NCBI RefSeq assembly: GCF_004001245.1
Contig: NZ_AP018724.1
Coordinates: forward strand, 1,542,501-1,606,500
Source: Sulfurivermis fontis
Lineage (GTDB): Bacteria; Pseudomonadota; Gammaproteobacteria; Thiohalomonadales; Thiohalomonadaceae
Direction: 5' to 3'
Length of the DNA stretch: 64,000 bases
Part shown: positions 42,522-64,000 of the stretch, one piece after another
Position numbering within the stretch: the first letter of the stretch is position 1
How the letters are laid out: the number at the start of each line of letters is the position of its first letter
Position numbers and translations under genes: made by a program
The notes under the pieces: model-generated
Seen by the model: only the letters and a program-made list of their open reading frames with translations
Told to the model about the DNA's origin: nothing
Database searches by the model: none

Positions 42522-42553
42522 TTGAAACATTCCTCTTTCAGGGTTGGGCCTCC

Positions 42554-42620
42554 ACGTACCCCGCTGGCCGACCCCCGGGTGATAGACCCTGAAGGCACCC
42601 CGGCCAGTGTGACGGTACGT
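42554..42620 (-). promoter_or_regulatory. Structured rpsB leader hairpin, probable S2 autoregulatory element
   Basis: On the rpsB mRNA, ACGTACC (plus 42614-42620) pairs with GGTACGT (plus 42554-42560), and CTGGCC with GGCCAG inside, around a Gly/Cys-poor loop region with GGGTCTATCACCC. Gammaproteobacterial rpsB leaders carry a conserved structure by which S2 represses rpsB-tsf. The assignment here is by position and shape, not alignment. Confidence 0.55.
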
Positions 42621-42678
42621 GTGCGGATTTGAAAAACTAAAAACTCAATAAACGCGGGTTTGCCTATTGAAGCCGCGC

Positions 42679-59904: not shown

Positions 59905-59957
59905 CACCCCGCCAACCGCTGTGGCTGCCGGTGTGCAAGCACGGCTCTTATGATTCC

Positions 59958-60986
59958 ATGCAGATACTGCCCGCAGAATGGTCACCGCAATGCGCGGTGC
60001 TGCTCACCTGGCCCCACCGGTACGGCCCGCTGGGGCGCATCCTGCAACAGGCGGAACAGGTATTCATACAGATTGCCAGGGCGGTCACTGCTCATGAGCG
60101 GCTGATTGTTTCCTGTCTGGACGAGGAACATCGCACCCATATCCAGACTCAGCTGGCCGTCGCCCGCGTCGACCTCGGTCAGGTACTTCTGGCCATTGCC
60201 CCGTCAAATGATGTCTGGGCGCGTGATCACGGCCCTATCACCGTATTGCGCGACGGCAAGCCTCTGTTGCTCGACTTCGCCTTCAACGGCTGGGGCCGCA
60301 AATACCCCTACGAACTGGACAATGCCCTCACCCGCACCCTGCACCGCCAGGGCGTGTTCGGCACCACACCGCTGGAGATCGTCGATCTGATTCTGGAAGG
60401 CGGTAGCATCGAGAGCGATGGCCGGGGCACCCTGCTCACCACCCGCCATTGCCTGCTCAACCCGCAACGCAATCCCGAATACGACTGCGTCGGCCTGGAA
60501 GGCATCTTCGCCCAGGTGTTCGGCAGCCGGCGCGTGCTGTGGCTCGACCACGGCGAACTGGAGGGCGATGACACCGACGGCCATATCGACACGCTGGCCC
60601 GCTTCTGCGACGAACACACCATCGCCTACGTGCGCTGCGACAACCCGCACGACAGTCATTACGCCGCCTTGCTGGAAATGGAGCGTGAACTCAAGGCCTT
60701 CCGCGACAATGAAGGCCGGCCCTACCGTCTGGTGCCGCTACCACTGCCCTCCCCCAAACGCAACGAACACGGCCAGCGCCTGCCCGCCACCTATGCCAAT
60801 TTCCTCATCATCAACGGTGCCGTGCTGGTGCCGGTCTATGACGATGTGCAGGATGCGGTGGCGCTGGAGCGACTGGCCCCCTGTTTCCCCGGCCGCGAAC
60901 TCATCGCCATCAACTGCCTGCCCCTGATCCAACAATACGGCAGCCTGCATTGCGTCACCATGCAGTTGCCGGCAGGGGTGGTATGA
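59958..60986 (+). CDS. aguA: Agmatine deiminase
   Basis: Hydrolyses agmatine to N-carbamoylputrescine and ammonia, the first step from arginine-derived agmatine to putrescine. The 342-residue protein begins MQILPAEWSPQCAVLLTWPH. Active-site features are SNDVWARDHGPI, LEGGSIESDGRGTLLTT, DDTDGHIDTLARF, and the nucleophilic Cys in YGSLHCVTMQLP. The start at 59958 gives the conserved N-terminus; a frame from 59931 is less likely. aguB lies 116 bp downstream, with a phrase repeat between. Confidence 0.95.
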   Translation: MQILPAEWSPQCAVLLTWPHRYGPLGRILQQAEQVFIQIARAVTAHERLIVSCLDEEHRTHIQTQLAVARVDLGQVLLAIAPSNDVWARDHGPITVLRDGKPLLLDFAFNGWGRKYPYELDNALTRTLHRQGVFGTTPLEIVDLILEGGSIESDGRGTLLTTRHCLLNPQRNPEYDCVGLEGIFAQVFGSRRVLWLDHGELEGDDTDGHIDTLARFCDEHTIAYVRCDNPHDSHYAALLEMERELKAFRDNEGRPYRLVPLPLPSPKRNEHGQRLPATYANFLIINGAVLVPVYDDVQDAVALERLAPCFPGRELIAINCLPLIQQYGSLHCVTMQLPAGVV

Positions 60987-60994
60987 AAAATCGG

Positions 60995-61082
60995 GTCCGC
61001 AAATGAACGCGAATGCAGGCCAATGAAAGCTATTCTTTCCCGGCAAAGTTGTATTCGCGTTAATTCGCGTTCATTTGCGGAC
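60995..61082. repeat. Inverted phrase repeat, TCCGCAAATGAACGC family, copy 2
   Basis: GTCCGCAAATGAACGCGAAT at 60995-61014 is matched perfectly, inverted, at 61063-61082. The right side carries one further phrase copy (GTATTCGCGTTA). It lies between aguA and aguB, in their probable joint transcript, where it could form a 20-bp stem. Confidence 0.9.
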
Positions 61083-61102
61083 TCGTCCTTGTGGAGGATG
61101 TG

Positions 61103-61993
61103 ATGAAATCACGAACCCTGCGTGTCGGCCTGGTCCAGCAGCCTTGCAGCGAGGATCGGGAAACCAATCTTTACTACAGCGCATTGAACATCCGCGAGGC
61201 GGCCGCCGACGGCGCCGAACTGGTGCTGCTGCAGGAACTGCACAGCGGTGTGTACTTCTGCCAGTCGGAAGACCCGGCACGCTTCGATCAGGCCGAGCCC
61301 ATCCCCGGCCCCACCACCCAAGCCCTGTCCGAACTGGCGCAGGAACTGGGGATCGTCATCGTCGGCTCGGTATTCGAGCGGCGCGCCTCCGGTCTGTACC
61401 ACAACACCGCCGTGGTACTGGAAAAGGACGGCAGCCTCGCCGGCATCTACCGCAAGATGCATATCCCGGACGACCCCGGCTATTACGAAAAGTACTATTT
61501 CACCCCCGGCGATCTGGGCTTCACCCCCATCGACACCTCGGTAGGCCGCCTCGGCGTGCTGGTGTGCTGGGACCAGTGGTATCCGGAAGCGGCGCGCCTG
61601 ATGGCCATGGCCGGTGCAGAGATACTACTCTATCCCACCGCCATCGGCTGGGACGAGCGCGCAGAACCGGACGAACAATTGCGCCAACGCGATGCCTGGG
61701 TCACCATCCAGCGCAGCCATGCCATCGCCAACGGCGTCCCGGTGGTCGCCTGCAACCGCGTCGGCCATGAGCCGGACCCGACCGGCCAGACACCCGGCAT
61801 CAACTTCTGGGGCTACAGCTTCATCTGCGGCCAGCAGGGCGAGATCCTCGCCCAGGCACCGGAAGACGATCCCACCTTCCTGGTGGCGGAAGTCGATCTC
61901 GGCCGCAACGAACAGGTGCGCCGCGCCTGGCCCTATCTGCGCGACCGCCGCATCGATGCCTACGCCGACCTGCTGCGCCGCTACCGCGACTAG
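61103..61993 (+). CDS. aguB: N-carbamoylputrescine amidase
   Basis: Hydrolyses N-carbamoylputrescine to putrescine, CO2 and ammonia, completing the pathway begun by AguA. A 296-residue nitrilase-fold protein starting MKSRTLRVGLVQQPCS at 61103, with GGAGG five bases before; a GTG at 61091 overlaps that site. The catalytic triad is Glu in LLQELHSGVYF, Lys in YRKMHIPDDPGYYEK, and Cys in VLVCWDQWYPEAAR. The YYEKYYFTPGD stretch is specific to this amidase group. Phrase repeats flank the gene on both sides. Confidence 0.95.
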   Translation: MKSRTLRVGLVQQPCSEDRETNLYYSALNIREAAADGAELVLLQELHSGVYFCQSEDPARFDQAEPIPGPTTQALSELAQELGIVIVGSVFERRASGLYHNTAVVLEKDGSLAGIYRKMHIPDDPGYYEKYYFTPGDLGFTPIDTSVGRLGVLVCWDQWYPEAARLMAMAGAEILLYPTAIGWDERAEPDEQLRQRDAWVTIQRSHAIANGVPVVACNRVGHEPDPTGQTPGINFWGYSFICGQQGEILAQAPEDDPTFLVAEVDLGRNEQVRRAWPYLRDRRIDAYADLLRRYRD

Positions 61994-62186: not shown

Positions 62187-63302
62187 ATGATCATCATCCT
62201 GCAACCGCATGTCACCACGCAGAGTCCGGAATTCGAAAACCTGCGCACCTACATCGCCAACCTGCCGCGGGTGCAGATGCGCGTGCACGAGGAGCGCGGC
62301 AGCCAGCAGACACTGACCGAGATCTATCTCATCGGCGACACCGCCGCCCTGGACAAGGATGACATCGCCAGCCTGCCCGGTGTCGAACGCGTGGTGCGCG
62401 TATCACGCGAATACCGCGTGCTCGGCCGTCACCATGACGACCAGCGCCCGAGTTATTTCGAGTACAACGGCGTGCGCTTCGGCCAGGACAACCTCAACGT
62501 CTTCGCCGGCCTGTGTGCGGTGGACACGCCGGAACACGTGGAGAGCATGATGCGCACCCTGCGCGATCACGGCCAGGTGTGCACACGCATGGGCGCCTAC
62601 AAGCCACGCACCAATCCCTATGCCTTCCAGGGCCACGGCAAGACCTGCCTGCCCTATGTATTCGAGCTGGCGGGAAAGTATGGCATCAAGGTCATCGCCA
62701 TGGAGGTCACCCACGACAGCCATGTGCACGAGATTCACGAGGCACTGCATGCCGCGGGCAATCCCACCGGCGTGATGCTACAGATCGGCACGCGCAACAC
62801 GCAAAACTTCGAACTGCTGAAGATCGTCGGTCGCCAGCGCGAGTTTCCGGTGCTGCTCAAGCGCGGCTTCGGCATCACTCTGGAGGAGTCGCTCAACGCC
62901 GCCGAATACCTGGCCTCGGAAGGGAACCGCAACGTGGTGTTCGGCCTGCGCGGCATGAAGACCAACATGGGCGACCCGCACCGCAACCTGGTGGACTTCG
63001 CCCATGTGCCGGTGGTGAAGCGCCTGACGCGCATGCCGGTGTGCATCGATCCGTCCCATTCGGTGGGTTCCCGCGAGCGCAGCCCGGACGGCCTGCTCGA
63101 CGTTTTTCACGTCACCGCCCAGGGCATCATCGCCGGCGCCAACATGGTACTGGTGGATTTCCATCCCCAGCCGCCCAAGGCGCTGGTGGACGGCCCGCAG
63201 GCGCTGCTGCTGCCGGAGCTGCCACACTTCCTGGAGGATGTGGCCATCGCCCGCGAGACCTATGAAAAACGTGTGGCGGCGGCCGCCCGGTATGCGGGCT
63301 GA
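62187..63302 (+). CDS. 3-deoxy-7-phosphoheptulonate (DAHP) synthase, type I-beta
   Basis: The first step of aromatic amino-acid synthesis, condensing PEP and erythrose 4-phosphate. It is 371 residues. An N-terminal ferredoxin-like regulatory domain (about 1-85, MIIILQPHVTTQSPEFENL) precedes the TIM barrel with MGAYKPRTNPYAFQG, IQIGTRNTQNF-type motif (LQIGTRNTQNFELLK), GLRGMKTNMGDPHRN and CIDPSHSVGS. The N-terminal extension marks the Thermotoga-like I-beta group, in which it mediates Tyr or Phe inhibition. AroG/F/H-type enzymes are different in the N-terminus. Confidence 0.93.
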   Translation: MIIILQPHVTTQSPEFENLRTYIANLPRVQMRVHEERGSQQTLTEIYLIGDTAALDKDDIASLPGVERVVRVSREYRVLGRHHDDQRPSYFEYNGVRFGQDNLNVFAGLCAVDTPEHVESMMRTLRDHGQVCTRMGAYKPRTNPYAFQGHGKTCLPYVFELAGKYGIKVIAMEVTHDSHVHEIHEALHAAGNPTGVMLQIGTRNTQNFELLKIVGRQREFPVLLKRGFGITLEESLNAAEYLASEGNRNVVFGLRGMKTNMGDPHRNLVDFAHVPVVKRLTRMPVCIDPSHSVGSRERSPDGLLDVFHVTAQGIIAGANMVLVDFHPQPPKALVDGPQALLLPELPHFLEDVAIARETYEKRVAAAARYAG

Positions 63303-63325: not shown

Positions 63326-63354
63326 CTGACAGTTGACAGTCAATGACATGTCAG
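63326..63354 (+). promoter_or_regulatory. Possible upstream activator site: clustered TGACA/TGTCA half-sites
   Basis: Within 29 bases there are TGACA at 63327, TGACA at 63334 (inside the perfect palindrome TTGACAGTCAA, 63333-63343) and the perfect palindrome TGACATGTCA (63344-63353). The cluster lies about 80-105 bases before the expected start from the sigma-54 promoter, the usual place for an enhancer-binding protein site. Confidence 0.55.
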
Positions 63355-63404: not shown

Positions 63405-63420
63405 TGGCACGCATATTGCC
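63405..63420 (+). promoter_or_regulatory. Near-consensus sigma-54 (-24/-12) promoter
   Basis: TGGCACGCATATTGCC has the invariant GG (63406-63407) and GC (63418-63419) exactly ten bases apart and matches TGGCACG-N4-TTGC fully. The expected transcription start is about 63431. It points rightward into a short transcript ending at an intrinsic terminator, with no gene between. Confidence 0.85.
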
Positions 63421-63430
63421 ACATGAATTG

Positions 63431-63529
63431 TGTGGAGCAATTCCACCGGCTCTGCGGAGTCGGTGGTGGATTCCCCTCCTTCCACACTGTGGTGTTTTCA
63501 GCCGCGCCCGAAATGGCGCGGCTTTTTTA
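63431..63529 (+). ncRNA. Candidate sigma-54-dependent small RNA (about 99 nt)
   Basis: Delimited by a near-consensus sigma-54 promoter and an intrinsic terminator. Predicted folding: a 10-bp stem with a TGCG loop (CCACCGGCTC 63443-63452 with GAGTCGGTGG 63457-63466); then GTGGA (63466-63470) with TCCAC (63481-63485) closing a ten-base pyrimidine loop TTCCCCTCCT; then the terminator stem. The loop CCCCUCCU is complementary to Shine-Dalgarno sequences, as in known anti-SD-loop sRNAs. No convincing peptide is encoded. Its 3' end faces the 3' end of a sigma-54 activator gene; compare CrcZ (downstream of cbrB) and GlmY/GlmZ, which are sigma-54 sRNAs, though neither is clearly homologous. Confidence 0.7.
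63500..63528 (+). terminator. Intrinsic terminator of the candidate sRNA
   Basis: AGCCGCGCC (63500-63508) and GGCGCGGCT (63515-63523) form a perfect 9-bp stem with a six-base loop, followed by TTTTTT. There is no U-tract on the other strand, so it serves rightward transcripts only. Confidence 0.9.
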
Positions 63530-63555: not shown

Positions 63556-64000
63556 TCAATTGCCGCGCATGCGTTCCACATAACGGTACAGGGTGCGCTC
63601 GCTGACGCCGAGACGCTGTGCCGCACGGGCACGGTGGCCGTCACAGGTCTCCAGGGCGTGCATCACCTCATCGTCGGTGAGACGGCCATGACGCCGCTGC
63701 AGCAGTTTGCGGCTGCTGCCCTCCAGCGCCCCCCGTTCGCCCCCTGGCTGTTGCACATCCTCGCGCCGCGGGCCCTCGAACACCAGATGTTCCGGCCGGA
63801 TGATGTCCTCACCATAGGCCAGAATCGCGGCACGTTCGATGATGTTGCGCAACTCGCGCACATTACCCGGGTAATCGTAGGTCATCAGGGTTTCGATTAC
63901 CTCGGGCGACAGCGGTACGAAACGATCGCCGTCATCGCTGCTGGACAGGAAATACTCGGCCAATGCGGCGATATCGTCGGGGCGGTCGCGCAGCGGCGGG
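63556..64000 (-). CDS. Sigma-54-dependent transcriptional activator (5' part beyond window edge)
   Basis: The reverse-strand frame is open through the right edge (before the internal Met at 63963 it reads PPLRDRPDDIAALAEYFL), so only about the last 147 residues are here. YDYPGNVRELRNIIERAAILA is the C-terminal end of the AAA+ sigma-54 interaction domain. A linker follows, then a Fis-type helix-turn-helix HRARAAQRLGVSERTLYRYV. The sensory N-terminus is not visible, so it may be a response regulator or a ligand-responsive activator. It is convergent with, and 26 bases from, the candidate sigma-54 sRNA. Confidence 0.9.
   Translation of the reverse strand, partial: PPLRDRPDDIAALAEYFLSSSDDGDRFVPLSPEVIETLMTYDYPGNVRELRNIIERAAILAYGEDIIRPEHLVFEGPRREDVQQPGGERGALEGSSRKLLQRRHGRLTDDEVMHALETCDGHRARAAQRLGVSERTLYRYVERMRGN

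Follow-up and report, generated by a model that had tools for sequence, protein, structure and literature searches.

Comparative sequence analysis of a 64,000-nucleotide stretch of the Sulfurivermis fontis genome (hereafter the window) identifies, close to its end, a predicted small RNA (sRNA) that, on sequence evidence, is genuine, conserved and linked to a sulfide regulon. The locus is flanked by a DAHP synthase gene, which is its neighbor in all five members of the genus, and by a convergent gene for a FisR-like sigma-54 activator that runs past the window end (Table 1). In the reading preferred here, with a probability of roughly 0.7, this activator switches on both sulfide-oxidation genes and the sRNA, whose role is to repress mRNAs at their Shine-Dalgarno (SD) sites. 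A sigma-54 promoter, an upstream activator site, the linkage to the activator, the sulfide context and a conserved CUCC are supported by computation. On the same comparisons, the sRNA is a new family whose parts are known and whose setting is new. The first-pass annotation of the locus had recognized the sRNA and overlooked the regulator and the sulfide context.

Table 1. Features of the sRNA locus in window coordinates
Feature	Position	Strand	Remarks
DAHP synthase gene upstream of sRNA	62187..63302	+	Pfam/NCBIfam; neighbor, outside the proposed circuit
Candidate upstream activator site TGACATGTCA (palindrome TGWCATGWCA)	63344..63353		Center ~56 nt before the -24 element
Sigma-54 (-24/-12) promoter TGGCACGCATATTGC	63405..63419	+	Sequence; TGGCAY-N7-GC in 12/12 homologues
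P1 closing stem, 5' strand GUGUGGAG	63430..63437	+	Pairs with 63480-63487; minimum-energy fold
sRNA, ~98 nt	63431..63528	+	Ends placed by the -12 position (5') and the terminator (3')
Hairpin P2, CCACCGGCUC-UGCG-GAGUCGGUGG	63443..63466	+	Sequence varies among relatives
Anti-SD-like stretch CCCCUCCUU	63473..63481	+	Sequence comparison
Conserved core UUCCACACUGUGGUGUUUU	63480..63498	+	P1 3' strand, alternative P3, U-rich stretch before the terminator
Intrinsic terminator, stem 63500-63523 and T tract	63500..63528	+	GC-rich terminator here in all homologues
FisR-like PAS/AAA+/Fis-HTH sigma-54 activator gene, C-terminal part	63556..64000	-	Pfam PAS_4, Sigma54_activat, HTH_8

Elsewhere in the window, inspection of translations shows agmatine deiminase-like and N-carbamoylputrescine amidase-like genes in tandem at 59931-61993, ahead of the DAHP synthase gene. 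On the minus strand, 42543-42643 holds a t44 RNA (RF00127; 77 bits), which belongs to a familiar RNA family.

Promoter, activator site and RNA fold

As claimed at first pass, the sRNA is preceded by a near-consensus -24/-12 promoter, in which exactly 10 nt separate the GG and GC elements, with the predicted start of transcription at ~63431. The chance of the strict pattern is ~2e-4 per 40-nt stretch (~16x higher for looser variants) and the 3.25-Mb genome (6.5 Mb on both strands) contains 37 occurrences against 12 of the reversed pattern, so a single match would be weak evidence. The promoter gains its weight from its presence in all homologues: TGGCA(C/T)-N7-GC is properly placed at all 12 sRNA loci, and the promoter had been excluded from both covariance models (R1 and R2) by which homologues were found. 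Combined with the conserved upstream activator site, this strongly supports the earlier proposal that the sRNA is sigma-54-driven.

That site, TGWCATGWCA, is found ahead of the -24 element within one mismatch at 11 of the 12 sRNA loci and exactly at seven, against a random-window background of 2.0 and 0.9%, respectively (binomial 2.5e-18 and 3.6e-12, for related genomes that are not fully independent). It also precedes the activator gene at 12/13 loci of the same family and 16/24 loci of other families, compared with 3.9 and 1.0% of windows. Exact copies are not over-represented genome-wide (nine, with ~12 expected from base frequencies). The palindrome is best read as the binding site of the activator itself. 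Sites of the TGTCATGACA type precede the FisR-like activator gene in many gammaproteobacterial families (loci L128-L154 and L098-L110). In the S. fontis genome, a multihaem c-type cytochrome gene (L065 1-1560; genome 2400476-2400556) is preceded by a pair of exact TGTCATGACA sites standing just before a -24/-12 promoter, and is probably a further member of the regulon.

The transcript, first given as ~99 nt, spans ~98 nt and ends as proposed at a terminator, here a 9-bp GC-rich stem followed by T residues. The predicted folding energy is below that of all 200 shuffles (z = -4.5; z = -3.7 with the terminator removed). The three hairpins of the first-pass description are better replaced by a closing stem between the 5' and 3' parts of the RNA around a variable hairpin. 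In most members this stem, P1, joins the 5' end (GUGUGG or GUGGAG) to UUCCACAC in the core. It encloses the variable hairpin P2 and a C/U-rich stretch that separates P2 from the P1 3' strand. The outermost P1 pair requires a transcript start at 63430, and an alternative hairpin, P3 (CCAC-ACU-GUGG, 63482-63485 with 63489-63492), competes with P1. The middle hairpin thought to display UUCCCCUCCU was not confirmed in that form: the predicted one is a 3-bp GGA/UCC stem that is not conserved, and in most relatives the C/U-rich stretch falls in the junction.

Compensating changes, sought as support for the stems, were found in P2. Between two members of the genus (G000 and G001) three of its pairs differ on both sides while all 10 pairs are kept; two-row shuffles reach the same 3/10 in 70 of 500 cases, so this covariation is supportive and suggestive, and a slid register gives none. 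Other relatives carry a hairpin of unrelated sequence at this position. Covariation is not claimed for P1, since its pairs are mostly invariant or changed on one side. A 5' GUAG partner considered in one relative (L014) was rejected, being located upstream of the expected start.

Distribution of the sRNA and its activator

A blastn search recovered the sRNA in four congeneric species and in one other genus; covariance model R1 (the transcript alone) added five further genomes and the core model R2 one more (G018), all from the same family. The 11 relatives and the window sRNA thus represent 12 genomes in six genera, all of the host's own family of sulfur oxidizers, the Thiohalomonadaceae. The covariance search suggested at first pass has yielded family-wide homologues in which promoter, RNA core and terminator are kept. 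An exact search for the core in 84,980 genomes returned five contigs only, apparently those of the five relatives already found; they come from MAGs, one of them labeled Thiohalomonas denitrificans. No strong match outside the family was found in a class-wide sample of 369 genomes, nor did the R2 class search find the sRNA beside activator orthologues of other families. Many class-level matches of R1 near E 0.01 were left out of the count, being tRNAs, common terminators or anti-SD sRNAs of another type.

Rfam scans with gathering and with permissive cut-offs gave no family above threshold at the sRNA locus. The best sub-threshold match is RF02278 (Betaproteobacteria_toxic_sRNA), at 25.7 bits against a gathering threshold of 50. 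Alpha-r14 (RF02344 ar14) scores 16.4 bits against 58.8, and the sRNA has one motif compared with three CCUCCUCCC hairpins, placing it outside that family. No Qrr model matched, either at its gathering threshold or at E<=5. By score, the sRNA belongs to none of these three families.

A second type of anti-SD sRNA consists of CUCCUCCAUCCUCCUUUGGUGGUUUU and a GC terminator behind a TTGAC/TATATTAG-like sigma-70 promoter, and occurs in several gammaproteobacterial families (L041, L169, L170, L176, and L030; matches near 1501-1600). These RNAs score 39-44 bits against RF02278, a little short of the 50 bits required; the reach of that Rfam family may thus include gammaproteobacteria.

Among genomes with a close activator orthologue, 12 of 13 carry the sRNA, compared with none of the seven that lack one (Fisher p = 1e-4, which overstates independence as the genomes are related). 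The lone activator-positive genome without it is an 82%-complete assembly in which the gene lies at a contig end.

A FisR-like activator in a sulfide-oxidation context

The activator gene starts beyond the window end, and its full 449-residue product, taken from the genome, has the PAS, sigma-54 AAA+ and Fis-HTH architecture of FisR-type proteins. The motif CYEVSHHVDAPCSQHGEHC in its PAS-type sensor domain has the form C-x10-C-x6-C, and this spacing is kept in orthologues from its own family and from many other gammaproteobacterial families. The orthologues often adjoin a gene for sulfide:quinone oxidoreductase (SQR), for a secreted rhodanese-domain protein, or for both. Two features of a FisR-type regulator, FisR-like spacing of the sensor cysteines and linkage to sqr, are present. 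Secreted rhodanese-domain proteins adjoin the activator or the sRNA at L049 8392-9758, L051 8554-9919 and L053 5083-5868, and those of L049 and L051 are tandem pairs with a CPPFC motif. The SQR beside the activator matches the solved sulfide-quinone reductase 3kpk (E 3.6e-171). Its gene has its own -24/-12 element, TGGCATAAATATTGC, and the promoter lacks an exact copy of TGWCATGWCA.

A homologue from Cupriavidus metallidurans is 45% identical over 436 aligned residues and has the same cysteine spacing. In Cupriavidus FisR, C53 and C64 are linked by a tetrasulfide (PMC8614764), and their spacing equals the C-x10-C of the activator described here. FisR of Acinetobacter activates sqr/pdo with sigma-54 (PMC7315123). 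The FisR regulons of both genera, in the sections of these reports that describe them, likewise couple a sigma-54 activator to sqr; they differ in that the target is the sqr/pdo operon, an sRNA going unmentioned in those sections (PMC8614764, PMC7315123). FisR of A. baumannii, which lacks these cysteines, still responds to sulfide (PMC7315123); the motif therefore does not prove the ligand of the present activator, which we infer with some reserve.

The anti-Shine-Dalgarno motif and what the sRNA may do

If the sRNA is expressed with sulfur genes, what is its role? CUCC is kept in 12/12 family members and CCUCC in 11/12, and CCUCC is the same core as that of the 16S rRNA 3' tail. The longer stretch CCCCUCCUU is unchanged only among the five genus members, and CCCCUCCU in full is fixed only inside the genus. 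The conserved motif of the first-pass annotation therefore stands in shortened form, its invariant CCCCUCCU loop fails family-wide, and its accessibility is moderate: in predicted folds, CCUCC has a mean unpaired probability of ~0.5 in the S. fontis sequence, and values among the predicted folds range from 0.15 to 0.73. G018 carries CUCCUCACUAUGGAG, and its CUCC falls within a stem. The CCUCC motif suggests that the sRNA turns down the translation of chosen messages under reduced sulfur.

A crude duplex ranking of 45 gene starts, some of them probably mis-chosen, singled out no target. The activator leader UUGGAGGGGUAAAUG ranked 10th of 45 in this list of partly doubtful starts; feedback on the activator's own mRNA is therefore a possibility, indistinct from background. 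SQR mRNA, 39th of 45 in the same crude ranking, is not favored as a target.

From these features, we infer transcription of the sRNA, its inducer, Hfq binding, repression and targets as follows. Reduced sulfur, probably persulfide or polysulfide, would modify the sensor cysteines of the activator, which would then bind TGWCATGWCA sites and, with sigma-54 RNA polymerase, transcribe the sRNA, probably alongside SQR and other sulfur genes. Ending at its own terminator, the sRNA would be stand-alone and trans-acting. Its U-rich 3' part probably binds Hfq, which is encoded in the host genome, and its CCUCC stretch would block ribosome binding on selected mRNAs.

Other readings share parts of this evidence. 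A sigma-54 sRNA of the same regulon might act by titrating a protein (CsrA/RsmA or Hfq) instead of by anti-SD pairing; GGA occurs in the hairpin region of four relatives (G009, G011, G013, and G017 (CUGGA)), GUGGAG stands at the 5' end of genus members, and most of the conserved GUGGUGUUUU is predicted to be unpaired. However, the loop of the window genus is UGCG and lacks GGA, yet CUCC is kept in 12/12, and the conserved, repeated AnGGA loops of RsmY/RsmZ are absent, leaving titration improbable. An origin as a diverged, promoter-swapped relative of RF02278-type anti-SD sRNAs is unlikely, if slightly less so. RF02278 is the best sub-threshold match, and the same bacterial family holds RNAs that clearly resemble RF02278 (39-44 bits) and have sigma-70-like promoters (L041, L169, and L170), so a possible donor is at hand. 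Against this, the score is half the gathering threshold and derives largely from C/U-rich sequence and the terminator, the core CACUGUGGUG differs from CCUCCUUUGGUGG, and both kinds of sRNA occupy separate loci in two genomes (G004 and G010).

There is a slim chance that another sigma-54 activator, NtrC-like for example, controls the sRNA and that the sulfide context is incidental. Paralogous activators exist, and sRNA and activator gene are on different contigs in four genomes (G005, G009, G013, and G018), but the sRNA shares its upstream site with the activator gene of many families, and presence of the sRNA tracks the FisR-like activator. Hardly credible is a non-functional locus, produced by a chance promoter and terminator or by a small-protein gene. 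Short ORFs do overlap it, but frames inside the RNA are not conserved among relatives, because the hairpin region differs in length; this rules out the small-protein gene and bears out the earlier statement that the RNA holds no credible ORF. RNA core, promoter and terminator are moreover kept across six genera, with the suggestive compensatory changes in P2.

The preferred reading, a FisR-like activator driving an anti-SD sRNA, has relatives among known systems. CrcZ/CrcY are sigma-54-dependent sRNAs under the enhancer-binding protein CbrB and so resemble it in their control; CrcZ is longer, and its A-rich Hfq-sequestering motifs are absent here. The qrr1 gene adjoins luxO, on which the Qrr RNAs feed back. 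Vibrio Qrr sRNAs have sigma-54 promoters, are driven by the enhancer-binding protein LuxO and act on mRNAs (PMC10162802, PMC2680268). That likeness is one of control; LuxO is a response regulator answering a quorum-sensing signal, and the present sRNA shows no sequence similarity to Qrr (no Rfam match). Campylobacter CJnc230/FlmE is RpoN-dependent, ~98 nt long, carries a putative anti-SD stretch in a single-stranded region and binds the ribosome binding sites of the mRNAs that it represses (PMC11187230). The combination called unrecognized at first pass therefore has partial precedent, and the sigma-54 sRNAs listed there omitted both Qrr and CJnc230/FlmE. CJnc230 differs in being mainly processed from flgE mRNA, in its flagellar regulon, in its anti-SD CCUU and in its unrelated sequence (PMC11187230). 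A C/U-rich anti-SD constant element is shared with alpha-r14/NfeR1 (PMC10746234), RF02278 (PMC4603805) and the Neisseria sibling sRNAs (PMC5362039, PMC9973317), and alpha-r14 stems likewise vary in sequence (PMC10746234). In contrast, alpha-r14 has three motif copies compared with one here, the NfeR1 promoter lacks a sigma-54 signature and NtrC represses NfeR1 (PMC10746234), while RF02278-like RNAs have sigma-70-like promoters.

Bacterial sensing of sulfide and persulfide is presented as the work of transcription factors governing oxidation enzymes, and searches of the open-licence literature found no sRNA within a sulfide or persulfide regulon. It could equally prove right or wrong that this sRNA is the RNA arm of such a regulon, reprogramming translation while co-induced with the sulfide-oxidation enzymes and possibly feeding back on the activator mRNA. 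The presence of TGWCATGWCA before the activator gene in many gammaproteobacterial families makes the regulon mappable computationally. If the preferred reading is correct, control of a conserved sRNA by this same activator would carry the sulfide response into translation, and would be another case, like Qrr and CJnc230, of sigma-54 regulons recruiting RNAs that act at ribosome binding sites.
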